A DNA stretch of 14,373 nucleotides from Gemmatimonadota bacterium. Lineage in GTDB: Bacteria > Gemmatimonadota > Gemmatimonadetes > Gemmatimonadales > Gemmatimonadaceae. Location: positions 1 through 14,373 of the forward strand of contig QHUV01000077.1 in assembly GCA_003222065.1 (NCBI GenBank), written 5' to 3'. Positions 1 through 14,235 of the stretch are shown in pieces. Under the pieces are notes generated by a model, which saw nothing but the letters and a program-made list of their open reading frames with translations, had not been told where the DNA came from and did no database searches. Within the stretch, counting starts at the first letter, position 1. Every line of letters begins with the position of its first letter. Both the position numbers and the translations under genes were made by a program.

Positions 1-1158
1 CGCAGCATGCTCCGCGAACGTCTCATTCCGCGCGGCGCCGAGGTGGACGTCGCGGCGCTCGAGACGACGATCGATCACCTGCCGAATCGGGAGCGAGTGG
101 CAGTGGTCGCGGGAGGACAATTCGTCGAATTCACGGAGAGCGTCGATGAATTTGCCAGACTGTTCGGACTGCGCGGTTTCGACGAGGTGGGCTGGCTGTC
201 CGCGCGCGGCATTCGATTCGAGGGGCAGTTGAGCGCGATTCTCGTGCTTTACGAGACCCGCAAGATCTTCGGCACGCGGACGTCGGAGCGATTCGGGCCG
301 ACGGTCGCGTTGTTCGAGTTGGCGATGGTTCGGTTTCTCGAGCACGACGCGCGCACGGAAGCGGTCGAGACGCTCGAGGGCGTGACGCAACGCGTTCACG
401 GCGAGTACGAACGCCGATTGGCAGAGCTGCAGGCGGGACTCGCCGAGCCCGGCGCGACGGAGGGTGGCGCGTCGGAGCGGGTTGTCGCGCTCGAGCGCGA
501 GCTGGCGCGATCCGAGGAATCGACTCGTCAGGCGGCGCGACGGGCCGATTCCGTAGAGGCGACGGTCGTGTCGGCCGTGGAGCAGCTCGAGAAGGCACAC
601 ATCGAGTTAGCACGACGCAACGAGATTCTTCGTCAGAAGACGCGCACGCTCCATCTCATCGACCGCGTGTTGAGCCTCGATGCGAGCACGAACGATCCGC
701 GCCAGCTCGTCGACGGCTTGCTCTCGCTCGTCGGCGATGACATGCACGCGCAACGCTGCTCGCTGATGCTGCGCGCGCGCGAGGATGGCTGGCTTTATCT
801 CGCGGCGGCACGGGGACTCGCGCCCGGCGTGGCGGAAGGGGCACGGATTCGCATCGGCGACGGCGTTGCCGGTCGCGTTGCTGCCTCACGAGAGCCGCTC
901 CTGGTGCGCGATGTCAGCGAGGCCAAGCAACATCCGTTGTTGCGTGACCAGTATTTCACGACCGGCTCTTTTATCAGCTTCCCGCTCGTGTATCACGACG
1001 ATCTCGTCGGCGTGGTGAATCTGACGAACCGCGCGATGTACGGAGTGTTTGGTGAGGAGGACGTGGAGCGCGTGAGGTTGCTCGGCTTGGTGATCGCCCT
1101 CGTCGCGTCGCGCGCGCGTCTGCCGGAGCGACTCGGCGAGATGCTCAGTGTCGGTTGA
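1..1158 (+). CDS. GAF-domain signalling protein with central coiled coil, probably 5'-truncated by the window edge
   Basis: The first in-frame ATG is at base 7, but the frame is open to the left edge, so the true start may lie upstream; from that ATG there are 383 residues. Residues about 217-367 form a GAF domain: helix entry LHLIDRVLSLDAS, the strand CSLMLRA, then RIRIGDGVAGRVAASREPLLVRDV and a final SFISFPLVYHDDLVGVVNLTNR. Residues about 115-215 are charged and heptad-like (coiled coil). Residues 30-110 end in a stretch (GFDEVGWLSARGIRFEGQLSAILVLYETR) that could be the tail of another GAF-like fold. GAF domains bind small ligands or mediate dimers; no catalytic output domain follows, so it is probably an adaptor or regulator. 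It overlaps trpD by 11 bp, which suggests co-transcription. Ligand and partner are unknown. Confidence 0.8.
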   Translation, partial: RSMLRERLIPRGAEVDVAALETTIDHLPNRERVAVVAGGQFVEFTESVDEFARLFGLRGFDEVGWLSARGIRFEGQLSAILVLYETRKIFGTRTSERFGPTVALFELAMVRFLEHDARTEAVETLEGVTQRVHGEYERRLAELQAGLAEPGATEGGASERVVALERELARSEESTRQAARRADSVEATVVSAVEQLEKAHIELARRNEILRQKTRTLHLIDRVLSLDASTNDPRQLVDGLLSLVGDDMHAQRCSLMLRAREDGWLYLAAARGLAPGVAEGARIRIGDGVAGRVAASREPLLVRDVSEAKQHPLLRDQYFTTGSFISFPLVYHDDLVGVVNLTNRAMYGVFGEEDVERVRLLGLVIALVASRARLPERLGEMLSVG

Positions 1159-2197
1159 CGGCGCGAGCGCCGTGTCGGCCGCCATCCGCCGCATGGCGCA
1201 TGGCGAGGCGATTCCGAGTGACGAGCTGACGCGGGCGTTCGATCGCGTCATGGCGGGGGAGGCAACCCCCGCGCAAATCGCCGGGCTCCTGATCGGCCTG
1301 CGCGTGAAGGGCGAAACGCCGGAAGAAGTCGCCGCCGTGGTCAGGGCAATGCGCAACGTCATGGTCGTGCTGCGCTCCGAGCGACCCGAGGAGTTGGTCG
1401 ACACGTGCGGCACGGGTGGCGGCTCTATCATGACGTTCAATATTTCGACGGCGGCGGCGCTCGTTGCCGCCGGCGCGGGCGTGCGCATTGCCAAGCACGG
1501 AAACCGGTCATTCACGTCTCTTTGCGGCAGCGCGGACGTGCTCGAGGCGTTAGGCATCTCGATCGAAGTGCCGCTGCCGGTAATGGAGAGGGCACTACGC
1601 GACGCGGGGATCGTGTTCATGTTCGCGCCCTTGATGCATCCGGCGATGCGTCACGTCGGACCCGTTAGGCGCGAGCTGGCGATACCGACGGTGATGAATA
1701 TCGTCGGCCCGTTGGCGAATCCCGCATTCGCCGGCCGTCAGGTCGTCGGGGTCGCCGACGAACGGCGATTGCCATTGATCGCCGGGACGCTGCGAGAGCT
1801 GGGAACCATGCACGCGCTCGTCGTGCACGGCGCGCCGGGGCTGGATGAGGTTTCACCGCTCGGCCCGACGCGGGTGATCGAAATTCGGAGTGGTACGATT
1901 CGCGAGTGGACAATCGAACCAGATCGTTATGACCTCGGTGCACCGCGCCCAGAACATCTCGCCGGCGGATCGCCAAAGGAAAACGCTGAGATGGTGCTGG
2001 CAGTACTTGGCGGAGAAGGGAGTAGCGGCGCTACCGCGGCCGTGGTATTGAATGCCGCCGCCGCGATCTATGTGTCGAGTGCGTCGAGTGCCGTCCGCAC
2101 ATTCGACGATGCCGTGAGCGCGGCACGGGAGGCGGTGCGCAGCGGCGCCGGCCTGCGCGCGCTCGAGCGGCTGCGCGCGGCGTTCGGCGCAGCCTAA
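1148..2197 (+). CDS. trpD: Anthranilate phosphoribosyltransferase
   Basis: TrpD transfers the phosphoribosyl group of PRPP to anthranilate, the second step of tryptophan synthesis, in the cytoplasm. The 349-residue product has the family's normal length. Visible motifs are the PRPP/anthranilate loop DTCGTGGG (residues 85-92), NIST at 98-101, KHGNRS (116-121), GSADVLEALG (127-136), the NIVGPLANP segment (184-192) and GLDEVS (231-236). The GTG start at 1148 lies inside the upstream GAF gene (11 bp overlap) and gives the expected N-terminus. In the conserved loop after KHGNRS, the usual Lys/Arg between Ser and Ser/Cys is Leu (TSLCGSAD); I see no sign that activity is lost. The gene ends 16 bp from the convergent lexA stop, so no terminator fits between them. 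The stop codon lies within a copy of the CGTTAGGC motif (reverse orientation, 2192-2199). Confidence 0.97.
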   Translation: MSVDGASAVSAAIRRMAHGEAIPSDELTRAFDRVMAGEATPAQIAGLLIGLRVKGETPEEVAAVVRAMRNVMVVLRSERPEELVDTCGTGGGSIMTFNISTAAALVAAGAGVRIAKHGNRSFTSLCGSADVLEALGISIEVPLPVMERALRDAGIVFMFAPLMHPAMRHVGPVRRELAIPTVMNIVGPLANPAFAGRQVVGVADERRLPLIAGTLRELGTMHALVVHGAPGLDEVSPLGPTRVIEIRSGTIREWTIEPDRYDLGAPRPEHLAGGSPKENAEMVLAVLGGEGSSGATAAVVLNAAAAIYVSSASSAVRTFDDAVSAAREAVRSGAGLRALERLRAAFGAA

Positions 2198-2213
2198 CGG
2201 TATTCCGCGACCG

Positions 2214-2822
2214 CTAGTAGCGCCTCATCACACCGACAACGATGCCCTGAATCATCACGTCGTTCTCGTTGACGTAGATCGGCGGCATCGTGTCATTGGC
2301 CGGTTGGAGACGAATACGCCCGTCGCGCTCGCGATAGAACTTCTTGACGGTGGCGGACGAACCATTCATCAAGGCAATCACCATCTCGCCGTTGTCGGCG
2401 CTTCGCCGCTCGTTGATGACAACGAAATCGCCATCACGAATTTGCTCATCGATCATCGAATTGCCGCGCACACGGAGCACGTAGTGATTGCCGCCGCGCC
2501 GAACAAACGTGTCAGGGACGCACATCGTCTCACCGTGCTCGATGGACTCGATCGGAACACCAGCGGCGACGCTTCCGAACACGGGTAACTCGATCGCGCG
2601 CGGCGTCGCCTCCGTCGGAAGGATCTCGATCGCGCGACTCTCGTTGTACGAGCGCTTGATGTAGCCCTTGCGCTCGAGATTGGAGAGATGCTCGTGTACC
2701 GTGGCAAGCGACGAATAGCGGAATTGCTCCGCGATCTCCTCGAAGCTCGGCGCGTAGCCGTTTTGTTCGGTATAGGTCGCGAGGTAGTTTAGTATTTCGC
2801 GCTGGCGCTTCGTGAGCGGCAT
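2214..2822 (-). CDS. lexA: LexA, SOS-response transcriptional repressor and self-cleaving protease
   Basis: LexA represses DNA-damage genes and cuts itself when RecA filaments form. I chose the start at 2822 because it gives the classic LexA opening MPLTKRQREILNYL and 202 residues. An upstream ATG would add 53 residues of non-LexA sequence crossing the control region. Residues 1-70 form the winged helix-turn-helix (recognition part about 28-50, PSFEEIAEQF...SLATVHEHLSNLERKGYI). The scissile Ala87-Gly88 is in VAAGVPIES, the nucleophile Ser122 in RGNSMIDEQIRDGDFVVI, and the general-base Lys160 in SATVKKF. All parts of autolysis are therefore present. An AGGA ribosome-binding site lies at 2833-2836. 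The gene is inverted inside the trp cluster between trpD and trpC, and shares the 2823-2917 region with trpC. LexA usually represses its own gene, which makes the repeated elements there candidate operators. Confidence 0.97.
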   Translation of the reverse strand: MPLTKRQREILNYLATYTEQNGYAPSFEEIAEQFRYSSLATVHEHLSNLERKGYIKRSYNESRAIEILPTEATPRAIELPVFGSVAAGVPIESIEHGETMCVPDTFVRRGGNHYVLRVRGNSMIDEQIRDGDFVVINERRSADNGEMVIALMNGSSATVKKFYRERDGRIRLQPANDTMPPIYVNENDVMIQGIVVGVMRRY

Positions 2823-2832
2823 GGCTGACGAT

Positions 2833-2836
2833 TCCT
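2833..2836 (-). promoter_or_regulatory. lexA ribosome-binding site
   Basis: AGGA on the minus strand, 10 bases ahead of the ATG at 2822. It supports the short LexA start over the 53-residue longer alternative. Confidence 0.6.
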
Positions 2837-2874
2837 GGGCTGAGTTTGCGCTCGGGTCCGCGCGATTGCGAATC

Positions 2875-2891
2875 CCGAACAAGCACCGAAT
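2875..2891. promoter_or_regulatory. Candidate LexA operator, copy 1 (GAAC-N7-GAAT)
   Basis: CCGAACAAGCACCGAAT matches the copy at 2902-2918 at 14 of 17 positions. Each copy contains two GAA-type half sites 11 bp apart. The layout is like the GAAC-N7-GAAC direct-repeat operator known for LexA of Alphaproteobacteria. The assignment to LexA is inferred from position beside lexA; the operator of this lineage is not known to me. Confidence 0.45.
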
Positions 2892-2901
2892 CTTACGATA
2901 T

Positions 2902-2918
2902 CCGAAGAAGGACCGAAG
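2902..2918. promoter_or_regulatory. Candidate LexA operator, copy 2, overlapping the trpC ribosome-binding site
   Basis: CCGAAGAAGGACCGAAG is the second copy, 27 bp downstream of the first, with half sites GAAG-N7-GAAG. It covers the trpC ribosome-binding site (2908-2912) and touches the GTG start, so part of the resemblance could come from the purine-rich ribosome-binding site. If bound, it would affect trpC as well as lexA. Confidence 0.35.
2908..2912 (+). promoter_or_regulatory. trpC: trpC ribosome-binding site
   Basis: AAGGA followed by 5 bases and GTG at 2918. It decides the trpC start in favour of 2918 over the ATG at 2846, which has no comparable site and would lie in the control region. 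Confidence 0.6.
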
Positions 2919-3739
2919 TGCAAGCATTTTCCGCGTGGACTCCGCCGTCCGGGACGCTCGGCCGCATCGTTGACGAGGCACGAGTGCGGGCCCGAGCGCT
3001 CGAAAGTCGAATCGCTGAGCTCGAAGAGCGCGCCAAGAACGGCGCGTCTGTGCCTGCGTTCGCGTCGGCCCTCCGCGGAACGACCGTGTCCGTCATAGCG
3101 GAGGTAAAGCGCCGCTCGCCGTCCAAGGGATGGATACAGCCGTCACTCAATGCGGCGACGCAGGCACGGGCATACGCGAGTGCTGGCGCCAAGGCGATCT
3201 CGGTGCTGACCGAGCCACAACACTTCGCCGGCTCGAGCGACGATCTCGTGGACGTCCGGAGTGCCGTGAGCATACCGGTCCTCAAAAAGGACTTTCACGT
3301 CGAAGAGGTCCAGCTCCTCGAGGCGAAATCGATCGGTGCGTCCGCGGCGTTGCTGATCGTGCGGGCACTGGGCCCAGCGCGGCTGCCGGTGATGACGCGG
3401 GCGGCGAACGAGCTGTCGCTGGAGGTGCTCGTCGAGGTTCGTGACGAGCGCGAGCTGGATCTCGCGCTCGAGACCGGCGCCCAGGTGATCGGAATCAACA
3501 ATCGGGACCTCGAGACGCTCGCCATCGATCCGAACACCAGCGCGCGCCTTCTTGGGCGCGTGCCGCCGACCGTCGTCGCCGTAGCGGAGAGTGGCGTCAG
3601 CGCACGCGCTGACGTCGAGCGCGTCGCGCAAGCTGGCGCGGACGCCGTGCTGGTCGGGTCGAGCGTGTCGTCCGCCGCCGATCCGAGCGACGCGGTGCGC
3701 GGCCTAACGGGAGTGCGGCGGATCGCGCGTGGTGACTGA
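2918..3739 (+). CDS. trpC: Indole-3-glycerol phosphate synthase
   Basis: TrpC closes the ring of CdRP to indole-3-glycerol phosphate with loss of CO2. From the GTG at 2918 it has 273 residues, close to the usual 255-270. An ATG at 2846 would add 24 residues lacking family character. Family motifs in order: IAEVKRRSPSKG (Lys64), SVLTEPQHFAGS (Glu98), PVLKKDFHVEEVQ (catalytic Lys124), LVEVRDERELDLAL, GINNRDLETL (192-201), VAESGVSA (Glu224) and VLVGSS phosphate loop. The whole (beta/alpha)8 barrel is present and it is a single-function enzyme, not a TrpC-TrpF fusion. It is the first gene of the long plus-strand operon and overlaps trpF by 11 bp. A CGTTAGGC motif (minus orientation, 3702-3709) lies near its 3' end in codons for Gly-Leu-Thr. 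Confidence 0.97.
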   Translation: MQAFSAWTPPSGTLGRIVDEARVRARALESRIAELEERAKNGASVPAFASALRGTTVSVIAEVKRRSPSKGWIQPSLNAATQARAYASAGAKAISVLTEPQHFAGSSDDLVDVRSAVSIPVLKKDFHVEEVQLLEAKSIGASAALLIVRALGPARLPVMTRAANELSLEVLVEVRDERELDLALETGAQVIGINNRDLETLAIDPNTSARLLGRVPPTVVAVAESGVSARADVERVAQAGADAVLVGSSVSSAADPSDAVRGLTGVRRIARGD

Positions 3740-4365
3740 GATCAAGTTCTGCGGCATGACGCGCGCCGAGGACGCCCTCGAGGCCGCGACGCTCGGCGCG
3801 GCGTACGTCGGTGTGATATTCGCTCCCGGGCCGCGACGTCTCACGACGGCTCGCGCCGCGTCCGTGCTCGCCGCCGTTGGACGAAACGTGCGGACGGCAG
3901 GAGTTTTTTCGGAGCCCTTCACCGACACGATCGCCGAGACGGCAAGAACTTTGGGGCTCCGCGTGATACAACTGCATGGTGAGCAGGACCCGGACGCGAT
4001 CGCGAGGCTCCGCGATTCCTTCGACGGAGAGATCTGGGGCGTGATCCGTGTAGCTGATGGCAGAATTCCAGAGACTGCCGCCGAGCTATTCGGGGCCGCT
4101 GATGCCGTTCTCGTCGACGCGCACGTACCTGGAAGGCTGGGTGGTACCGGCGTGACGCTGCCGTGGAGCGAATTGCGCGATCAGCTCATGCCTTGCCGAG
4201 AGATGAGCTCGGCGAAGCTCGTCCTCGCCGGAGGGCTCCGGCCGGAAAATGTGGGCGAAGCAATCCGTCTGTTGCGACCCGAGATTGTGGACGTCTCCTC
4301 AGGTGTGGAGACGGCACCCGGGATCAAGGATCACGCGCGCATGCGCGCATTCAGGGACGCCGTAC

Positions 4366-4379
<14 letters not shown>
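3729..4379 (+). CDS. trpF: Phosphoribosylanthranilate isomerase
   Basis: TrpF isomerises phosphoribosylanthranilate to CdRP. The 216-residue protein carries the signature start [12 protein letters not shown] with catalytic Cys8, the strand [16 protein letters not shown] (25-40), IQLHGEQD (80-87), catalytic Asp130 in [15 protein letters not shown], and the phosphate-binding segments [10 protein letters not shown] (166-175) and VDVSSGVE (187-194). The gene begins with two consecutive GTG codons (3729 and 3732); either could be used. It overlaps trpC by 11 bp and trpB by 14 bp, so translation of the three is likely coupled. Length and motifs are normal; nothing suggests decay. Confidence 0.96.
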
Positions 4380-5567
<1,188 letters not shown>

Positions 5568-5571
<4 letters not shown>

Positions 5572-7049
5572 CAGCTTCCTCCGCGCCCGCGCCCACCGGG
5601 GGGACGGAGGCTGAGGCCCCCTTTGCTCCCGCTCCCGTCCAGGAGCTCTTGCGACTCTTCGTCAAGGCGGGGCGCGCCCATCAGCTGTATCTCCCCAATA
5701 ATCCGATATACAAAGGCGCGCTGGATGCGCTCCGCGCCGGTTTTTCCGCCATTTGGGCGCGAACGGACGAGCTGCCGCTGACCTTTAGTGAAACCGAGAT
5801 CTGCTGGTTCGAGCAGGTCGTGTTGTCGGAGCCAAGCAAGTCGGCAGACAGCCTCTCATGGATGTTCTTCAAGGACGGCGTCCGCGAGCTCAAGCTTCTG
5901 AAGGGCTTCGAGGACAAGGAAGTCGTCGCGCTGTTGAGCATCCTTCAACGCGCTCGTAAGGCATCGCCGGATGAGGACGACCTCCTGACGATGCTGTGGG
6001 AGGCGGACTTCGCGTACGCGCGATACCGCTATCAGGATCTTGGTATGGACGCCGCGGCGCCGATCGCCGACAGCGGTCCAAAAGCCGATGTGACGCGTGA
6101 GCAAGTCGAGCAGGTAACGCACACTGCCGTCACCGAATCGCAAGCATCGGGGATCGTCAACCTCTCGGACTTCGACGCGACTCTGTACTTCCTGGACGAC
6201 AATGAGATCGAGTATCTCCACGGTGAGATCAGCCGGGAGTACGCGGACGATCTCCGATCGCGTGTGTCGTCGACGCTGTTGGATATCTTCGAGCAGCAAG
6301 GCAAGGGCGACATCCGCCGCGAGATTCTGGAGTTGATGGAGCTGTTCGATCAGCTGCGGCCGATCGCACTCGGAACGGTATTCAGCTGGCTCACGCGCAT
6401 GCACAACCCGCGCGTGCGCCCGCTGCTCGAGGCGGCAGCGGAACGTCTCGCCTCGCTGAACACGACGGAGCTGGTGCGGCTGATTCTCGCGCAGGAACGT
6501 GAGGTGGCACTCGAAGCGATCCGTCGTGCTGGGTCGTTGAAGACGCCGGCCGCGGTGCAATCACTCTCGAAAATCCTCGCCGGATCCGATGTCGAGCTCC
6601 GACAGCTGGCGGTGAGCGCCCTGACGGAAATCGGATCGCCGAGTGCGTTGCAGGCCCTCGAACGAGGGGTGGAGGATTCGGACCGGGAGGTCCGGATCTC
6701 GGCGGTGCGCGCCTTCACGACGCGCCAGTACAAGCTCGTTCTGCCTCGCGTCGATGCGGTGGTGAAGGGCAAAACAATTCGCGAAGCGGATCTCACCGAG
6801 AAGATGGCGTTCTTCGAGGCCTTCGGAACGCTCTCCGGCGAAGGTGGTGTCGAATACCTCGACTCGGTGCTGAACGGAAAGGGATTCCTGGGACGCCGCG
6901 AGGACTCGGAGTTACGAGCGTGCGCGGCGATCGCGCTCGGTCGGATTTCGAGCCCTAAGGCAACCGAGGTCCTCCGCAAATCGTCGTCCGAGAAGGACGT
7001 CGTTGTCAGGAACGCGGTGAATCGCGCGCTGCGCGGAGCGATCACATGA
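5568..7049 (+). CDS. HEAT-repeat protein with an N-terminal domain shared with the next gene's product
   Basis: I recognise no named family. The 493-residue protein starts at a GTG overlapping the trpB stop (GTGA). Residues 1-22 are Ala/Pro-rich and likely disordered. Residues about 25-155 form a globular domain containing [18 protein letters not shown] and ending in VVALLSILQ. It resembles residues 40-137 of the HD-GYP protein encoded downstream. A charged linker covers 160-225. Residues about 228-490 are alpha-helical HEAT-type repeats: units such as [56 protein letters not shown] and [24 protein letters not shown], with a last unit near 447-488 ([21 protein letters not shown]). HEAT solenoids bind proteins; no catalytic motif, signal peptide or membrane segment is seen. 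It is tightly coupled to trpB and the HD-GYP gene. Role: inferred scaffold or effector. Confidence 0.8.
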
Positions 7050-8533
7050 CGGCGTCGCGTCCTCTCTCGGCGCCGGCACAGCGCAACCTCACGGCGAGCG
7101 CCGGCGACCCGAACGCTGGTGACTCGTACATTCGGCGCGCTGGGCGGAGCCTGATCTATTCCTACCACGCCGCGCTCCGCGCCATCAAGCTCTATCCGGT
7201 CGAGAATGCGGCGGTTCAGCGCGCGCTCGCGGAGCTCACGACGATGAGTCGCGAGATCATCGCCGCGGAAGGGGAGCTCGAGATCCGCACCTCGGGCGAA
7301 TTCATATTTGTGAACGCCACGCGACTCCGGTTGGATCTCGACAATTACGCGAGTTTCAGCCACCTGTTGTCGCTCTATCGGCGCGCCGGCCTCGGGACGC
7401 AGCAGATCGACGCCACGGTGACGGCGCGCGATTGGCTCGTCTTCCTGTCGCTGCTGCAGACGGCGCCGGGGAACGAGGAGCCGGAACAACGCTTCGAGAT
7501 CCTGCACGCAAAGCTCGACGCGGCCGGCATTCGCGCTTTCACCCTGGCGCGGCCCGCCGAAGCGGACGAAGACGACAAAGAGAAGAGCAAGGAACGCGCG
7601 AAGCGCACATACGCGCAGTCGGTCGCCGTGACGAAGGACCTCATGACGGCCGTGCGGTTCGGGAAGAGCCCGAACATCAAGAAGATCAAGCGGGTCGTTC
7701 AGGGTATCGTCGATCAAATCCTCAACGAAGAGACGTCGCTCGTCGGCCTAACGGCGATCCGCGATTATGATGAATACACGTTCACCCACAGCGTGAACGT
7801 GTGCATCTTCTCCGTCGCCATCGGCAAGCGACTCGGCCTAACGAAGCTGCAGCTCTACGACCTGGGCATGGCGGCGCTGTTCCACGACATCGGCAAGTCG
7901 CGCGTGCCGTCGGAAGTACTCAACAAGGTCGAGGGGCTCACCGACGAGGAGTGGAAGCAGATCGCCGCCCATCCCTGGATGGGCGTGCTTTGCCTCTTCC
8001 AGTTGCGCGGCACGCAGGATCTGCACTATCGCGCGATGATCGTGGCCCACGAGCACCACATGAAGGTCGATCTCACCGGCTATCCGCGTACCGTGCGGCC
8101 GCGGCAGATGAGCGTGTTCAGCAAGATCGTCGCCGTGGCTGATGGATTCGACGCGGCGACGTCACGTCGTTCCTATCAAACGACGCCGCTCAATCCTGCT
8201 GATGTCATGAAAGAGATGCGCGACAACGCCCGGCGCGGAATGGATCCGGTGCTCGTGAAGGCGTTCGTCAATCTCACGGGCATTTACCCGATCGGCACCC
8301 TCGTCGTGCTCGACACCTTCGAGCTGGGACTCGTGCACGCGGGGAATCCGATCGCCGAGATGCTCTCGCGGCCGATCGTGCGGATCATCAGCGACGCGAG
8401 GGGCAACATCCTGTTCCCAGGCTACCTTGTCGATCTCGCAGACCGCGGGCAGGACGGAGCATTCAAGCGTACAATCATCAAGACGGATCAACCCGATCGG
8501 TACGGCATTCGTGTCGGTGACTATTTCATCTGA
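7046..8533 (+). CDS. HD-GYP domain protein (probable cyclic-di-GMP phosphodiesterase or related signalling hydrolase)
   Basis: HD-GYP proteins hydrolyse cyclic di-GMP or act as its receptors. The 495-residue product starts in an ATGA overlap with the HEAT gene, with GGAG at 7035-7038. Residues 30-140 resemble the N-terminus of the HEAT protein (SYHAALRAIKLYPVENAAVQ...VFLSLLQ). A charged linker follows (170-187). The HD-GYP domain spans about 235-405: His248 in YTFTHSVNV, His280-Asp281 in LFHDIGKSRVP, His309 in AAHPWMG, His337-His338, GYP at 345-347, and Asp366 in AVADGFDA. Metal ligands are kept. The signature is HHMKVDLTGYP rather than the usual HHExxDGxGYP, so Glu and one Gly are changed. 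A C-terminal region of about 85 residues (412-495) resembles the beta-rich extensions of other HD-GYP proteins. There is no membrane segment. It overlaps trpA by 17-23 bp. Confidence 0.9.
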   Translation: MTASRPLSAPAQRNLTASAGDPNAGDSYIRRAGRSLIYSYHAALRAIKLYPVENAAVQRALAELTTMSREIIAAEGELEIRTSGEFIFVNATRLRLDLDNYASFSHLLSLYRRAGLGTQQIDATVTARDWLVFLSLLQTAPGNEEPEQRFEILHAKLDAAGIRAFTLARPAEADEDDKEKSKERAKRTYAQSVAVTKDLMTAVRFGKSPNIKKIKRVVQGIVDQILNEETSLVGLTAIRDYDEYTFTHSVNVCIFSVAIGKRLGLTKLQLYDLGMAALFHDIGKSRVPSEVLNKVEGLTDEEWKQIAAHPWMGVLCLFQLRGTQDLHYRAMIVAHEHHMKVDLTGYPRTVRPRQMSVFSKIVAVADGFDAATSRRSYQTTPLNPADVMKEMRDNARRGMDPVLVKAFVNLTGIYPIGTLVVLDTFELGLVHAGNPIAEMLSRPIVRIISDARGNILFPGYLVDLADRGQDGAFKRTIIKTDQPDRYGIRVGDYFI

Positions 8534-9308
8534 GCGTATCGCCGAGCAATTCGCGCGACTGCGCGCGTCCGGGCGACGCGCGCTGGTGCCGTACGTGACC
8601 GCCGGCCATCCGTCTCCTGACGAGACGCTCGCGCTGTTATCGGGACTCGAGGATGCTGGCGCCGACGTGATCGAGGTCGGCGTGCCGTTCTCCGATCCGA
8701 TGGCGGACGGCCCGATCATTCAAGCCAGTTCCCAACAGGCGCTCGCCGCGGGCATGACGTTCGACGGCGTTCTCGACACCGTTTCACGCGCCAAGCTCGG
8801 CGTGCCGATTGTGTTGTTCACGTATTTGAATCCGTTACTGGCCGCTGGCAGAGACGCGCTCACGCGTGCCGCGGAGGCGGGCGTGCACGGCGTCCTCGTC
8901 ACGGACCTGCCGGTCGGAGCGGACGCCGAGCGCGAACAGTGGCTGGGCGACGGTCCGCTCGCGTTCATTCGGCTCGTCGCGCCGACGACTCCGCAGGCGC
9001 GCATGGCGGAGATTTCACAACACGGCAGTGGATTCGTGTACCTGATCAGCCGCCTCGGCGTCACGGGGGTGCGCGAGACTCTGCCACCCGACTTGCCGGC
9101 GACCGTGCGTCGCCTGCGCCAATCGACGCAGCTGCCGATCTGTGTCGGCTTTGGGGTGTCGCGCCCGGAGCAGGCGCGCGCCGTCGCGGAGCTGGCGGAT
9201 GGAGTCGTCGTCGGCAGCGCGATCGTGCGTGCTGCCGGCGAGAGCGTCGAGAGCGCTGTAACCCTGGCAGCATCACTTCGTGCCGCCATCGATACGGTGT
9301 CGCCATGA
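8511..9308 (+). CDS. trpA: Tryptophan synthase alpha chain
   Basis: TrpA cleaves indole-3-glycerol phosphate to indole, which is channelled to TrpB. The GTG at 8511 gives 265 residues, the standard length; a second GTG at 8517 is also possible. No strong ribosome-binding site is visible, so translation may depend on the overlapping HD-GYP gene (23 bp). Catalytic Glu55 and Asp66 are in [19 protein letters not shown], at the family's 11-residue spacing. Other motifs are [11 protein letters not shown] (25-35), FTYLNPLL (103-110), [14 protein letters not shown] (124-137), [10 protein letters not shown], the [12 protein letters not shown] loop (177-188) and the phosphate-binding GFGVS (213-217) and VVVGSAIV (232-239). 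The enzyme looks complete. Its separation from trpB by two signalling genes is unusual. Confidence 0.97.
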
Positions 9309-11386
9309 AGTTCTTTCTTTCCGGATTCTCGCGCGCGTTAGGCGCGGCCGGGATGCTGCTGCTTGGCATCGTGCTCGTGTTCGATCACCGATGGGCTGGG
9401 TCGTGGGTTGGCATCATTCTCGTTTTTTCGGCGACGGTGCTGCTCCGTACGTATCAGGTGCCGCTCACCAAGTACGGCGCGCTGAACTTTCTGGCATTTC
9501 CGGCGCTGGCCGGGTCGATCATCATCGGTGCGGCGAGCACGTCGCTCGGCATTTACGCCGGCGTGCTTTTTACGGATCTGCTAATCCTTCGGAAGAGCAC
9601 CGAGCCGAGCTGGATCAACGCTGGGCGCGAAGTCGTCGCGCTCGTGAGCGCCTACGGCTTCTTTGCCTGGGCGTCCGTGATGACAGGCGCGGCGCATTCG
9701 GCGGGCATGACGACGGAGGGATTGCCGGCCCTTACCCTCTTCTCGCTGTCGTATTTCATCCTCAGCCGGGCGCTGCTGTATTTCAGTTTGCTCTGGCGCG
9801 ACAAGCTGTTGGAGGAAGAGAAGTCGCTCATCTTGCGGTATGAGGTGATCGGCTTCGGTGCTGGATTGATCGCCGTCGCCGTGGTATTGGCGACGATCAG
9901 CTCGATCGGTCCGGTTGGGTGGGTGTTCGTCGGCGCGACGCTCATTGTCATCGGCGTCCTCGTGAAGCGCATCTTCGAGGAGGCCGTCTCGGCGGAGGAG
10001 CTGAATAAGATCCTCGCCATGGAGCAGGTCGTATCGTCGGACATGAGTCTTGCCGATGCGTTCTTGCGGATCGAGTCGCTGGCGCATCGTCTCGTCGACT
10101 GGCGTGAATTCCGAGTGTTCCGGATGCACGCGACGGGGCCACAGCTGGCGTGGAGCTCGTCGCTTGGCTTTCTCTCGACGCCGCACGAGCCGCCCGAAAT
10201 CGGCATGCGAATGCGTCGCTTGGCGCTCGAGACCGGGCAGGCGGTGATCGTTACCGACGCCACTCAAGATGGCCGTCTCGAGGCGCGCCCCCGCGATGTC
10301 ATGAGCATTGTCGTACTGCCGATGCGGTTCGGCGACCGCAACGTCGGCTTGCTCGAGCTCGAGCACCACAAGCGCGCCGCGTACAGCGTCAAGGACGTGG
10401 CGATGATTCGCCGATTCGCCAATCAGTTGGCGACAACGCTGCACATCGACGAATTGAAGACGCCGCTGCTCGAAGCAATGCGGCGGGTGAGCTCCCAGCT
10501 CGAGACGCTCAACGTGTCGGCGCAGGCGCTTCGCGGCGGCGGCGAGTCGGTGGCGAAGACGATCGGCGACATCTCGCGGGGCATCGTGGAAGAGAGCGAT
10601 CAGCTCGGACGAAGTCTCGAGGCGACGCACTCGCTGCACGAGGCGACGGCGCAGGTCGTCGAGCATGGGAGCAGCGCCGCGAGCGCGAGCCAAAAGGCCA
10701 CGGAGATCGCCGCCGAACATCGGCTCACGATCGGAACGGCCATCGAAAGACTGGTGAGCGCGAAGGGCTTCGTTGCCGAGAGCACCGCGCAGATCGACCA
10801 GCTCGTGCGCACGACGAAGCGCATTACGGAATTCATCGCTGTGATTCGCGAGCTCGCTGACCAGACGAACCTCCTCGCGCTCAACGCCGCCATCGAGGCG
10901 GCGCGCGCCGGGGAGCATGGCCAGGGCTTCGCCGTCGTCGCGGAGGAAGTGCGCAAGTTGGCGGAGCAGAGCGCGCGGGCCTCGGACGAAGCGGGCGACA
11001 TCGTGCTCGGCTTCGAAGAGCAGATGCGCCGCGTCGCGTCGCAGATGCAGCGCGGGCAGTCGATCGTGAGCGACGTCGAAACGCTCTCGGAATCGGCGCG
11101 ACACGCGCTGGATCAAATCGTCGAGGCGACCGCCGCGGCCGCACACGGAGCACAGCGAATCGCGATGACGTCGCGCGATCAGGAGCTCGAGTTCTCCAGG
11201 TTGCGAGACCGTGTCATGCGCGTCGCGGAGATCTCGCGCCGCAACCGCGCCGGCGCCGAGGATGTTACGTCGTCGGCGAAGGATCAAGCGGCGGCGTTGC
11301 GCGAGCTGGAAGGCGCGGCGCACGAGCTGCGCAGCGTTGCCGTCTACCTCAGCGACCTCACCCACCGCATAACGAGCGTCGCATGA
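9305..11386 (+). CDS. Membrane protein with GAF and methyl-accepting chemotaxis (MCP signalling) domains
   Basis: A 693-residue chemoreceptor-like protein. The ATG at 9305 overlaps the trpA stop (ATGA); the frame is open further left only as a trpA shadow. Residues 1-220 hold about six to eight hydrophobic segments (near 9-26, 33-48, 58-95, 108-130, 139-164, 181-200, 204-220) with short loops, so there is no periplasmic ligand domain of ordinary size. Residues about 240-385 form a GAF domain ([39 protein letters not shown]). Residues 390-690 are the long MCP helical hairpin. Its conserved tip runs from about 515 to 556 ([22 protein letters not shown] then [19 protein letters not shown]). The protein should bind CheW/CheA, but no che gene is near, and the CheR-binding tail pentapeptide is absent. 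Likely stimulus: membrane state or a cytosolic GAF ligand (inference). Confidence 0.93.
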
Positions 11387-11820
11387 GCAGCGACGGTTCG
11401 CCGCGGCGTACTGATCCGGCGCGCCGAGGGCGGGCGCATCCGCCCGCCGCCCAATCGACGCCCGTTGCCGGCGAGCGGGAGATCACCCTGCGCGGGATGC
11501 GCTTTCACGCGCTCGTCGGCATTCTCGAGCACGAACGCACGGTACCGCAGCCGCTCGAGGTGGACCTCACCGTGCGATCGGCGGCCGAGGACGGTATTCT
11601 GGACTACCGGCGATTGTACGAGCAAGTCGAGCGCGTCGTCTCGGCTGGCCCGATCGACTATCTCGAGAATATCGCCGAGCGAATCACCCGCGCCGCAATG
11701 GAGGACTCACGAATCCGCTTGGCGCGCGTCGCGGTCCGCAAGCCACACGTCGCGCTGCCGGGGCCACTTGCGTACGCGGAGGTAGTCGTTAGGCGAGAGC
11801 GCGAGGAGGGATCTCGCTAG
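11383..11820 (+). CDS. folB: Dihydroneopterin aldolase
   Basis: FolB cleaves 7,8-dihydroneopterin to 6-hydroxymethyl-dihydropterin in folate synthesis. The 145-residue protein starts in an ATGA overlap with the chemoreceptor-like gene. The family domain begins at about residue 33: [20 protein letters not shown] (conserved Glu51), [18 protein letters not shown], the [11 protein letters not shown] helix (91-101), and the catalytic Lys120 in [10 protein letters not shown]. The first 30 residues are a basic, Pro/Ala-rich extension not usual in FolB, which is generally about 120 residues. No in-frame start closer to the domain stands out, so the extension may be real. It is followed by folK after 2 bases. 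A CGTTAGGC motif lies at 11787-11794 in frame GTT-AGG. Confidence 0.93.
11804..11809 (+). promoter_or_regulatory. folK: folK ribosome-binding site inside the end of folB
   Basis: AGGAGG, the strongest ribosome-binding sequence I saw in the window, 13 bases before the folK ATG at 11823. The spacing is a little long but the match is full. It allows folK to be translated independently of folB. Confidence 0.6.
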
Positions 11821-11822
11821 CC

Positions 11823-12242
11823 ATGCCGCGCGACATCGCCTACGTCGCTCTCGGATCGAACCTCGGTGACCGCGACGCGCATCTCGAGCGCGCGCGAAAG
11901 GCGCTGGCGGCGATTCCGCAATCACGGGTGATCGCGGAATCAAGCATCGAGGAGACAGCACCCCTCGGTCCCGTCGACCAGGATAAGTACCTGAACCAAA
12001 TGGTCGCGCTCGAGACGGAGCTTTCGCCGCGCGAGTTGCTCTCCCAGCTGCAGCGCATCGAGCAAGCAGCCGGCCGGACACGCGAGGTACGATGGGGCCC
12101 GCGGACCCTCGACCTCGACATTGTGCGCTACGAGACGCAAACCGCGTCGGACCGCGATTTGGTCGTGCCACATCCGGCGGCTGGGGCGCGGGGTTTCTGG
12201 CGTCGTGAGATGGCGCAGCTTCGCGCGATGCTAGGTCGGTGA
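11823..12242 (+). CDS. folK: 2-amino-4-hydroxy-6-hydroxymethyldihydropteridine pyrophosphokinase
   Basis: FolK (HPPK) moves pyrophosphate from ATP to 6-hydroxymethyl-dihydropterin, the step after FolB. Motifs: IAYVALGSNLGDRDAHLERA (5-24), ESSIEETAPLGPVDQDKYLNQMVALET (39-65) and the core signature RWGPRTLDLDIV with magnesium-binding Asp97 and Asp99. The VPHP segment (115-118) is present, but the following conserved helix (normally R/A-FVLxPLxEI) reads AAGARGFWRREMAQLRAMLGR. The protein ends at 139 residues, about 20 short of the usual length. The catalytic centre is complete, so it is probably active with a compact C-terminus. It overlaps the next gene by 4 bp (GTGA). Confidence 0.94.
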   Translation: MPRDIAYVALGSNLGDRDAHLERARKALAAIPQSRVIAESSIEETAPLGPVDQDKYLNQMVALETELSPRELLSQLQRIEQAAGRTREVRWGPRTLDLDIVRYETQTASDRDLVVPHPAAGARGFWRREMAQLRAMLGR

Positions 12243-12793
12243 AAACGCGCGTCGATTCGGTACTCGTCGAGCTCCCTCCGTGGGCACAGGTCACCGAGAA
12301 ACGGCGCGCCCACATCCAGCGCGTCGCGGCGCTGCTCGAGCAGTGGGCCGATGTCATGCGCGTCGCGCCGCAGGAGCGTCGAGACTGGCTCGACGCGGCG
12401 CGCTGGCATGACGCGCTGCGCGATGCGCCCCGCGAAGAGCTTCGCCGCCTGGCCGGGAACGCCCCCTATGAGCCGGAGATGCTCCACGGCCCGGCGTCGG
12501 CGGCGCGGCTTGCCCAGGACGGCGAGCAGCGCACCAATGTCCTCGACGCCATTCGATTCCACACCGTAGGTTCGCCGGAGTGGGATCGAACGGGGCGGGC
12601 GCTCTACATGGCCGATTTTCTCGAGCCCGGCCGCTCGTTCTCCCGAGAAGACCGTGCCTTTCTTGCGTCTCAGGTGCCGCACGATTTCGACGGCGTGTTT
12701 CGCCAGGTGGTTCGTATGCGTCTGGTGTACGCCCTCAACGAAGGGCATATGCTCTTCCCAGAGACAGTTCAGCTGTGGAACACGATTCGATGA
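12239..12793 (+). CDS. YqeK-like HD-domain hydrolase (probable diadenosine tetraphosphatase family)
   Basis: The 184-residue HD-superfamily protein matches the pattern of the YqeK family, some members of which hydrolyse diadenosine tetraphosphate symmetrically. Metal-site residues in order: His25 (RRAHIQRVAALLEQWA), His57-Asp58 (AARWHDALRD), His83 (EMLHGPASAARLA), His108 (VLDAIRFHTVG) and Asp126 (ALYMADFLEPGR). The segment IRFHTVGSPEWDRTGRALYMADFLEPGR is the most YqeK-like part. Length agrees with Bacillus YqeK (about 186). The lysine usual after the HD pair in YqeK (HDxxK) is absent, reading HDALRD. It starts at GTG in a GTGA overlap with folK and is followed by a LytR_C gene. That pairing is familiar from YqeK / ribosome-silencing-factor / LytR neighbourhoods, though nadD and rsfS are not present here. 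Confidence 0.85.
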   Translation: MKTRVDSVLVELPPWAQVTEKRRAHIQRVAALLEQWADVMRVAPQERRDWLDAARWHDALRDAPREELRRLAGNAPYEPEMLHGPASAARLAQDGEQRTNVLDAIRFHTVGSPEWDRTGRALYMADFLEPGRSFSREDRAFLASQVPHDFDGVFRQVVRMRLVYALNEGHMLFPETVQLWNTIR

Positions 12794-13209
12794 CTCGCAA
12801 GACGGTCGCGTTTGCCCTGATAGGCTCCTTCGTCGCGTTGGCCGCCACGGCGACGGCATTGCCGGCGCGCCGCGGCCCGGCTCATGGCCACGATGTTCGC
12901 GAGCGGCCGAACACGCCAAGGGTACGCGTTCAGGTGCTCAATGCGACGAAGACGCGCGGTCTCGCTCGGAGAGCGATGATGTACTTGCGCGATCAGGGAT
13001 TTGACGTCGTCGAAGTCGGCACCACAGCAGCCGCGCGTGACACGACGCTCGTGCTCGATCGCTCCCGGCACCCGGAGTGGGCACGGAGCGTCGCGTCCTC
13101 GTTAGGTCAGGCACGCGTGGAGTCGCGCCCGGACACCTCACGCTACCTGGACGTCACCGTGCTCGTTGGGTCCTCGTGGCGGCCGCCGGCCCAGCCGTTC
13201 TACCCGTAG
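12790..13209 (+). CDS. Membrane-anchored or secreted LytR_C-domain protein
   Basis: This 139-residue protein starts in an ATGA overlap with the YqeK-like gene. Residues 1-24 form a signal peptide or single membrane anchor (basic MTRK, then a hydrophobic stretch AFALIGSFVALAATATAL). Residues about 43-132 fit the LytR_C domain: VRVQVLNATKTRGLARRAMMYLRDQGFDVVEVG, DTTLVLDRS, EWARSVASSLGQ, and YLDVTVLVGSSW. This domain is usually the C-terminal part of LytR-CpsA-Psr cell-wall ligases; here it stands alone without the catalytic domain. It probably acts in the periplasm or at the envelope; its ligand is not known to me. Its last 72 bp overlap the 3' end of rlmN on the other strand. It is the last plus-strand gene visible in the operon. 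Confidence 0.82.
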   Translation: MTRKTVAFALIGSFVALAATATALPARRGPAHGHDVRERPNTPRVRVQVLNATKTRGLARRAMMYLRDQGFDVVEVGTTAAARDTTLVLDRSRHPEWARSVASSLGQARVESRPDTSRYLDVTVLVGSSWRPPAQPFYP

Positions 13210-14235
13210 CTGACCGCACGCAGCGGCGATATCCACGCCGCGGCTCTTCCGAATTGCCACCTCGACGCCGTGGCGGCGCAACTCGTGAGCGAAGTCGCGA
13301 ATGCGCGTTGCCGGCGTCGGCACGAAGCCTCTCGCGCCGCCCGGGTGCAGCGGAATCAGGTTCACGAAAGCGCGGCACTCGCGCGCCAGCTCAGCGAGCC
13401 GGATTGCGTGTTCGGTTGCGTCATTCACACCGCCGAGCATCACGTACTCGAACGTCACGCGCCGATCGAATTGTTTCGCCGCCTCGATCACGTCGGAGAG
13501 CGGATACTTGACGTTCACGGGCATGAGCTCACGACGTAGCGAATCGCTCGGCGCATGAATCGAGATCGCGAGACGAAACTGCTCCGGTCGTTCGCCAAGG
13601 GCCACGATTCCGGGCAGGACGCCGACTGTCGAAACGGTTATGTGCCGAGCGCCTAACCCTAAGCCTAACGGGTCATTCAGGAGCGTCAGTGCGTCATTCA
13701 CAGCGCGCCAGTTCATGAGCGGCTCGCCCATGCCCATGAACACGACATTCGTGATTTGCAGCGGCGGATCGAGCAACCGCATTTCACGCACTTGCCCGGC
13801 GATCTCGAAGACCTCGAGGTTGCGCTGAAATCCCATGGCGCCCGTCGCACAGAAGGCGCACTGGAGCGCGCAACCGGCCTGTGAGGAGATGCATAGGGTC
13901 AGTCGGTCGCCCTCGGGAATCGCGACTGACTCGATCGCCTGCCCGTCGCCAAGTATGAACAGGAATTTTTCCGTTCCGTCGGCGGAACGCTGCCGAGCAG
14001 CGATGGACAATCGGGGCAACTCGAACGCGAGCGCAAGCTGAGCACGCAGGGACTTCGGCAGCTCGGTCACGGCTTCGAAGTCCGCGGCGGGATTGACCCA
14101 TAGCCTCCTCAGAATCTGCTTGGCGCGATAGACGGGTAAGCCCCCCTGCGTGAAGAATTCGCGCAGGCGCGACTCCGCCGCGGCCGGCGTAAGGTTCAGG
14201 AGGTTCTCTCGGTTCTTCGGGGACGTCGCGCTCAT
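13138..14235 (-). CDS. rlmN: Dual-specificity RNA methyltransferase RlmN (23S rRNA A2503 / tRNA A37 C2-methylation)
   Basis: RlmN is a radical-SAM enzyme that methylates C2 of adenosine 2503 in 23S rRNA and of A37 in some tRNAs. I prefer the ATG at 14235 (365 residues) because GGAG lies 9 bases before it; the ATG at 14250 adds 5 residues and would have almost no leader from the likely promoter. Features (numbering from 14235): N-terminal accessory domain 10-85 (LPVYRAKQILRRLW), the [4Fe-4S] motif CALQCAFC (Cys122, Cys126, Cys129), NVVFMGMGEPLMNW, ITVSTVGVLPGI, LAISIHAPSDSLRRELMPVN, VTFEYVMLGGVND, FVNLIPLHP, and the methyl-carrying Cys340 in AAACGQL. About 22 residues follow that motif, where many RlmN proteins end; this tail lies wholly within the antisense overlap with the LytR_C gene. 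Confidence 0.96.
   Translation of the reverse strand: MSATSPKNRENLLNLTPAAAESRLREFFTQGGLPVYRAKQILRRLWVNPAADFEAVTELPKSLRAQLALAFELPRLSIAARQRSADGTEKFLFILGDGQAIESVAIPEGDRLTLCISSQAGCALQCAFCATGAMGFQRNLEVFEIAGQVREMRLLDPPLQITNVVFMGMGEPLMNWRAVNDALTLLNDPLGLGLGARHITVSTVGVLPGIVALGERPEQFRLAISIHAPSDSLRRELMPVNVKYPLSDVIEAAKQFDRRVTFEYVMLGGVNDATEHAIRLAELARECRAFVNLIPLHPGGARGFVPTPATRIRDFAHELRRHGVEVAIRKSRGVDIAAACGQLRVERLGRRPPRGPNEHGDVQVA
13651..13670 (-). repeat. Paired CGTTAGGC-type motif inside rlmN
   Basis: On the coding (minus) strand this reads CGTTAGGC, then TTAG, then GGTTAGGC, encoding Leu-Gly-Leu-Gly-Leu-Gly with the rare codon TTA three times. It is the densest site of an octamer found exactly at 1548, 1663, 9336 and 11787 (plus) and 2192, 3702, 7746, 7836 and 13663 (minus), with a one-mismatch copy at 13100 and the one at 13651. 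Its role is unknown. Confidence 0.6.

Follow-up and report, generated by a model that had tools for sequence, protein, structure and literature searches.

Self-recognition codes for DNA uptake have been found in two proteobacterial families, the Neisseriaceae and the Pasteurellaceae, which are the only ones known to have them according to a 2025 paper (PMC12616744). The same paper indicates that dialects occur in these DNA uptake sequences (DUS) and uptake signal sequences (USS), and that pairs in inverted repeat are often, but not always, present. In Neisseria 943 to 3236 DUS per genome are reported (PMC3630211). Here we will describe an octamer, CGTTAGGC, which may be a signal of this kind. 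It is found in a stretch of 14,373 nucleotides from a Gemmatimonadota bacterium of the family Gemmatimonadaceae (assembly GCA_003222065.1, contig QHUV01000077.1). This stretch, which is one entire contig, will be called the window.

Copy number in the genome and the phylum

The window has nine exact copies of CGTTAGGC, all of them at the positions and on the strands reported in the initial annotation. The strong over-representation reported there is also found: CGTTAGGC is the top over-represented 8-mer of the window by z-score, with 9 copies against 0.18 expected from an order-2 Markov model. The genome to which the window belongs (G000; 3.73 Mb in 736 contigs, 82% complete) has 2065 copies, 1079 and 986 by strand, whereas the reversed word is found 226 times (112 and 114). 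The enrichment thus persists outside the window.

We have counted the octamer in 395 genomes of Gemmatimonadota. At least one copy is found in 394 of them, but only 26 have more than 150 copies; the remaining 369 have fewer than 100. We call the former rich and the latter poor, a cut which was chosen after the counts were seen. The rich genomes belong to the family of the window (17), to a second family (8) and to a third one (1); in a wider look at the second family, 8 of its 102 genomes are rich. The lowest three of the rich genomes have 168, 172 and 181 copies. The highest count, 4469, is found in G080, which we have equated with the cultured Gemmatirosa kalamazoonensis KBS708, and the genus of the window is represented in this draw by three genomes, with 2065 to 3411. 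The number of copies in the richest genomes (2065–4469) is therefore of the size reported for the DUS of Neisseria (PMC3630211).

In a midpoint-rooted tree of 21 taxa, based on seven partly covered proteins of the window's gene cluster, rich and poor lineages are interleaved. The sister of the poor G229 (3 copies) is a group of three genomes which have 2745–3754 copies, and the poor G159 and G170 (26 and 30 copies) group with the rich G245 and G080. The trait has therefore probably been gained or lost several times. In the region syntenic to the window there is no copy of CGTTAGGC in any of the six poor genomes examined.

Independence from protein and codon constraint

Four rich genomes were sampled in depth, with 75, 441, 140 and 340 kb of stretches, and CGTTAGGC is the leading 8-mer in each of them. 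Genes were defined with a simple codon-usage picker of open reading frames, which gave a coding fraction of only 0.64 in G200. When synonymous codons were shuffled within these genes (30 times), the octamer appeared on average 2.0, 7.7, 2.7 and 6.3 times, against 45, 169, 68 and 144 copies observed. The shuffled means are thus 22 to 25 times below the observed counts, and the enrichment is not removed by this comparison. Six control words submitted to the same shuffles are found at most at about twice the shuffled level, or below it.

The sites where the protein would be compatible with the octamer lead to the same result. They hold CGTTAGGC in 45 of 172, 169 of 970, 68 of 236 and 144 of 741 cases, 426 of 2119 in total, an occupancy which is 27–39 times that expected from codon usage. 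In nine poor genomes 2 of 690 such sites are occupied, with 2.3 expected, and 12 permuted control words in G242 have ratios of observed to expected of 0 to 1.2. The initial annotation had stated that protein constraint does not explain the octamer; this is borne out by the shuffles, by site occupancy and by the controls with poor genomes and permuted words. It is strongly supported that CGTTAGGC is a signal at the level of DNA, beyond protein constraint.

Four of the six phases in which the word can be read are free of stops, and every one of them is used. The other two would make TAG or TAA; site 2192 has one of these two phases, just where trpD needs its stop. Of the 129 TTA codons in the Gemmatirosa sample 95 belong to an octamer; the share is 27–41% in the other three samples. 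In some soil Gemmatimonadota thousands of exact copies are thus maintained through an unusual choice of synonymous codons.

Variants, strand and spacing

The word is sharply defined. When the exact word is masked, 1.2 copies of CGTTAGGC are expected in G080 and 254 are present; for CGTTAGG with A, G or T as its next base the total is 4 against 2.6. Two copies with one mismatch had also been noted in the initial annotation and both exist: CGTTAGGT at 13100..13107 on the + strand, which is the most enriched variant of the window's genus, and GGTTAGGC at 13651..13658 on the − strand, which adjoins the exact copy in rlmN and may be due to chance. As a class, however, such copies are not in excess: the window has ten of them, and chance alone would give 10.6 matches with at most one mismatch. 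The enrichment is confined to particular variants. In the G242 sample CGTTAGGT is found 38 times against 2.0 expected (19-fold) and in the G000 sample 7 times against 0.5; GGTTAGGC is enriched in the G242, G200 and G080 samples. In G080 we also find 28 copies of TGTTAGGC (54-fold) and 56 of CGTTGGGC (6-fold). The tolerated position depends on the genus: a final T in G242, a first T in G080 and any first base in G200 (14–17-fold). The flanks are nearly uninformative, with a mild preference for G or A at +1.

Both strands are used equally: the four rich samples have 114:123, 81:82, 47:55 and 22:27 copies. The first pair comes from 21 stretches distributed over the G080 chromosome (5.3 Mb), where no leading-strand bias was found: over 21 placements of the origin and its opposite terminus the maximum share is 0.55. 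In the four main samples the copies are 1.3 to 1.9 kb apart on average. Gaps shorter than 200 bp are scarcer than by chance (32 observed, 54.3 expected), and the spread is even, with an index of dispersion of 0.90 over the 21 stretches of G080.

Conservation and turnover of the sites

In the congeners of the window's genome (79% identity) 5 of the 9 window sites are kept in G361 and 6 of 9 in G242, compared with 21% and 20% of octamers with the same composition. A second genus gives 9 of 13 sites kept from G200 to G358, against 31% of control octamers. When two regions are pooled, 9 of 22 sites are kept from G242 to G361 (controls 18–19%) and 10 of 23 from G242 to G000 (controls 19–21%), with p about 0.01 in each case. 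In these alignments sites are kept within two genera above the level of control octamers, to a modest extent.

Aligned window sites differ by substitution without gaps. An example is the copy at 1548..1555 (+ strand), in trpD (NCBIfam), which is read GCG TTA GGC (Ala-Leu-Gly). The octamer is common to G000 and the aligned G200, G358 and G245, although the congeners G361 and G242 lack it there and have CCCTCGGC and CGCTCGGC; the change from CGCTCGGC to CGTTAGGC is one of these substitutions. Copies thus originate by point substitution, at sites tolerated by the protein, and they turn over with a total that remains high.

A possible uptake signal

A word which is symmetric between strands, non-palindromic, abundant, with dialects and renewed by substitution, in genomes with pilus and ComEC genes, resembles a DNA uptake sequence. 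By this analogy CGTTAGGC would be a genome-wide recognition word of certain Gemmatimonadota, most likely a self-recognition signal in natural transformation; we hold this interpretation with about even confidence. A postulated surface receptor for DNA, carried by a type IV pilus, would recognize the octamer in either orientation, and kin DNA would be pulled in through PilT retraction and ComEC. Alleles carrying the word would re-enter genomes by recombination more often, so that it would accumulate wherever proteins tolerate it. Uptake would then be the selected function of the octamer.

The genes for such a process are widespread. Of 60 genomes 54 have ComEC, 22 of 26 rich and 32 of 34 poor ones, and PilT-family ATPases are found in 32 of 32. 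Matches to the GspH/FimT profile are found in 19 of 26 genomes and do not follow octamer richness; in the 20 stretches around these matches, clusters of minor-pilin genes are present in some rich and in some poor genomes.

Several observations weigh against an uptake signal. None of the tested genes follows the octamer, because ComEC, PilT and minor pilins are also present in poor relatives, and the search with the GspH/FimT profile and its 20 surrounding stretches gave no candidate for the receptor. G080, G200 and G242 show no excess of inverted pairs, and a single adjacent inverted pair is found in the G000 sample. The word could be expected to be missing from DNA acquired recently, but on the two Gemmatirosa megaplasmids (102 copies in the 150 kb fetched) it is at least as dense as on the chromosome, which has 237 in 420 kb, and the same holds for a phage-like element of 15 kb with 12 octamers per unit. 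Conservation has modest p values, about 0.005 to 0.01, from comparisons which overlap, are not independent and were made post hoc. With the second region on its own 5 of 14 and 4 of 15 sites are kept, which is not significantly above the controls, comparisons between genera keep 0 to 2 sites, and from G156 to G029, within one genus, 0 of 3 are kept. Finally, no uptake experiment for this phylum was found in open-licence PubMed Central.

The same collection has no paper which joins "DNA uptake sequence" with Gemmatimonadota, nor one for Gemmatimonadetes, octamer and overrepresented. Among its papers on natural transformation in gemmatimonads, those listed look unrelated from their titles and the start of their abstracts, and among those with the string GCCTAACG the ones listed are unrelated by title.

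The phage-like element is a high-copy element of Gemmatirosa (G080 contig C1, 20,952 bp; L001/L002). It consists of a 14,997-bp unit, the first part of which is repeated terminally, and its genes include those of a tyrosine integrase, of a phage-type primase and of a protein similar to a repressor. Its relatives were sought in viral contigs, with one weak match, which lacks the octamer; a further search gave no match.

Alternative explanations

The roles listed in the initial annotation included an uptake sequence, a Chi-like site, a methylation site and a site for a nucleoid or segregation protein. Uptake fits best among them. The main rival to it is that the octamer is the site of an abundant protein which organizes the chromosome, or of another DNA-binding protein (nucleoid, condensin loading, HIP1-like), with no relation to uptake. 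The even spread (dispersion 0.90 in G080), the avoidance of close neighbours and its presence on every Gemmatirosa replicon sampled are consistent with such a site. On the other hand, it is patchy among close relatives, as it is apparent from the poor G229 (3 copies), sister to rich lineages, and unlike HIP1 it is not palindromic; we consider this explanation unlikely. A polar segregation site fits poorly: the octamer has no strand polarity (a leading-strand share of at most 0.55 in G080), so it is not a site of the FtsK-orienting polar sequence (KOPS) type. A Chi-type site, at which a helicase-nuclease would switch from degradation to recombination, is also short and over-represented (PMC4390886). 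A protective mark could explain the full density on plasmids and on the high-copy element, and RecC is present in the rich G040 and G090. These are the only two of 17 rich genomes with RecC, against 3 of 10 poor ones, some assemblies being incomplete. The search for the nuclease domain of AddB/RecB, PDDEXK_1, gave no match in 7 of 13 rich genomes, while 12 of 14 control genomes have it, and yet what look like AddAB pairs are carried by the poor G229 and G213. With its strands balanced (114:123 in G080; leading-strand share at most 0.55), a classical Chi is a poor fit and quite improbable. Recognition by a DNA methyltransferase seems very improbable. 5-Methylcytosine is poorly detected by single-molecule real-time (SMRT) sequencing. 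The cyanobacterial HIP1 is linked to methyltransferases (PMC4390886), but the SMRT methylome of Gemmatirosa kalamazoonensis has only the motifs RGATCY, ATGCAC and CCAGN7TCA (PMC3974934). The octamer is missing from it, which contradicts an N6-methyladenine site for Gemmatirosa. From these results on RecC and PDDEXK_1, on strand bias and on the methylome, classical Chi, polar segregation and N6-methyladenine sites are unlikely.

Two further explanations concern the origin of the copies. They might be a by-product of integrons, either scattered attC core boxes or footprints of the integrase. The core consensus of attC is GTTRRRY, and its paired core boxes lie roughly 60–130 bp apart beside cassettes. 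In L019 (contig C14 of G256), a 6.7-kb contig of integron cassettes with attC sites, the right-hand core is CGTTAGGC: C precedes GTTAGGC in 9 of 9 right-hand boxes, thus the octamer is the attC core in this array. In the five units which have both box forms, there are 83 to 124 bp from GCCTAAC to the GTTAGGC which follows it. When the window's family is restricted to genomes with at least 97% completeness, 11 of 11 rich ones and 15 of 23 poor ones have an integrase over the cut-off, a hand count made post hoc. In all 60 genomes, however, rich ones have such an integrase as often (14 of 26) as poor ones (18 of 34). The window copies, which are unpaired and occupy both strands, lie in housekeeping genes and differ by substitution without inserted DNA. 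Integrons as the source of the dispersed copies are strongly contradicted, and we give a by-product of this kind very little weight. As for neutral mutation dependent on context, or a bias in codon usage, we have found no point in its favour. In G080 CGTTAGG with A, G or T after it is found 4 times against 2.6 expected and the exact word 254 times against 1.2; the 12 permuted words have no excess, and the shuffled means are 2 to 8 against 45 to 169 observed. These results contradict it, and its probability is close to nil.

The coincidence with attC might also be combined with an uptake signal: a third, independently evolved uptake code would exist in Gemmatimonadota, with the attC core as its recognition word. 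This is speculative and rather improbable. If true, each free gene cassette would have a built-in uptake tag, which would link competence for kin DNA to the capture of cassettes in soil. No paper on Gemmatimonas, integrons and attC was found in open-licence PubMed Central.

Among the first ten places listed for each of 15 genomes, several poor relatives have octamers in rows, at intervals of several hundred bp and for the most part on the same strand; the row in L019 consists of attC sites. Similar-looking rows are found in G138:C5, G114:C2, G002:C43 and G395:C298. Enzymes similar to RecBCD or AddAB are patchy in the family (G229, G213, G159, G019, G090 and G040), and several genomes, both rich and poor ones, show neither.

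Individual sites in the window

Besides the copy at 1548, trpD has two more. The one at 1663..1670 (+ strand), in the Val-Arg phase (NCBIfam), is kept in the congeners G361 and G242 and in no other genome aligned at the site. The copy at 2192..2199 (− strand) crosses the trpD stop codon, GCC TAA CG on the + strand; it is kept in G361, G242, G200 and G358, which with the window's genome makes five genomes of two genera. The copy at 3702..3709 (− strand), in the 3′ part of a trpC-like frame (2846–3739, named by eye), is kept in G361 and G242. Two copies on the − strand are found in an HD-GYP-like gene at 7046–8533, with an NCBIfam match below the cut-off: the one at 7746..7753 is kept in none of the aligned relatives, and the one at 7836..7843 is kept in G242, with CGTGAGGC in G361. 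A frame similar to a chemotaxis receptor, which ends at 11386 and has matches below the cut-off, contains the copy at 9336..9343 (+ strand); it is kept in G361, and G242 has GGTTAGGC. The copy at 11787..11794 (+ strand), in a folB-like frame at 11383–11820 (named by eye), is kept in G242, with CGTCAGGC in G361. The last one, at 13663..13670 (− strand) in rlmN (NCBIfam), is kept in both G361 and G242. Among named genomes, those with the closest relatives of this rlmN are Gemmatimonadaceae.

The tryptophan gene cluster occupies positions 1148–9308, with trpD identified by profile and the trpC-, trpB- and trpA-like frames by eye. It is interrupted by HEAT-repeat-like and HD-GYP-like genes and also by lexA, which has the reverse orientation, and it is collinear in the congeners G361 and G242.

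Other words

Ten poor genomes were screened for other words, with 16–40 kb each. No dispersed octamer of similar density was recognized in them; a word of low density would escape at this scale. The strongest candidate, in G017, was rejected, as it is found largely in tandem-repeated stretches about 273 bp apart, and so was an over-represented word of G144, which is partly an 18-bp tandem array. We also note ATTTCCTG in G144 (L076), with 6 copies in 23 kb against 0.25 expected. In the 340 kb of G242 there are 16 copies of AGGGGCTAGGG, often clustered (L007, L008, L041, L043, L049), perhaps a repeat family. In Gemmatirosa G080 there are 93 copies of CCTGCCCT and 32 of GGACTGAA; both words form scattered clusters, in L025, L027, L039 and others, which are short tandem arrays where looked at. 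A low-complexity stretch of the CACCAACCACC type in G242 (L009:19734-19815) has many dispersed matches on both strands of G361.

Significance

If CGTTAGGC is an uptake signal, it would be a third case, in a distant soil phylum, for the study of how uptake codes begin, spread and end. The code in Gemmatimonadota would be equally strong, and repeatedly gained or lost among sister lineages. Gemmatirosa kalamazoonensis is cultured, its genome is finished and its methylome is published, so that the hypothesis is directly testable. The addition of the octamer to transforming DNA would then be a route of genetic access to a phylum with few cultured members.

Comparison with known systems

The closest likeness is with the DUS of Neisseriaceae, which also have thousands of dispersed copies of a short non-palindromic word with dialects at the level of the genus; the hosts of CGTTAGGC likewise have genes for the type IV pilus and ComEC. 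However DUS are read by the minor pilin ComP, while a receptor for CGTTAGGC is only postulated. The octamer also differs from DUS in its sequence, its length (8 rather than 10–12), its phylum and in having no excess of inverted-repeat pairs. With the USS of Pasteurellaceae it shares abundance, dispersal throughout the genome and dialects, but the sequence is unrelated and no AT-rich downstream extension is seen, only the mild G/A preference at +1. Like the Chi of RecBCD/AddAB it is a short over-represented word of the octamer class; unlike Chi it has no strand polarity, and 15 of 17 rich genomes gave no match to RecC. The cyanobacterial HIP1 (GCGATCGC) is also a single octamer extremely over-represented in a phylum and low in some species, but HIP1 is palindromic and tied to methyltransferases, whereas CGTTAGGC is non-palindromic and is not among the published methylation motifs of Gemmatirosa. 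The attC core site of integrons (GTTRRRY) is similar in sequence, as CGTTAGGC contains GTTAGGC, the core box of the L019 array; in contrast with attC, the copies in the window are single, unpaired and inside housekeeping genes.

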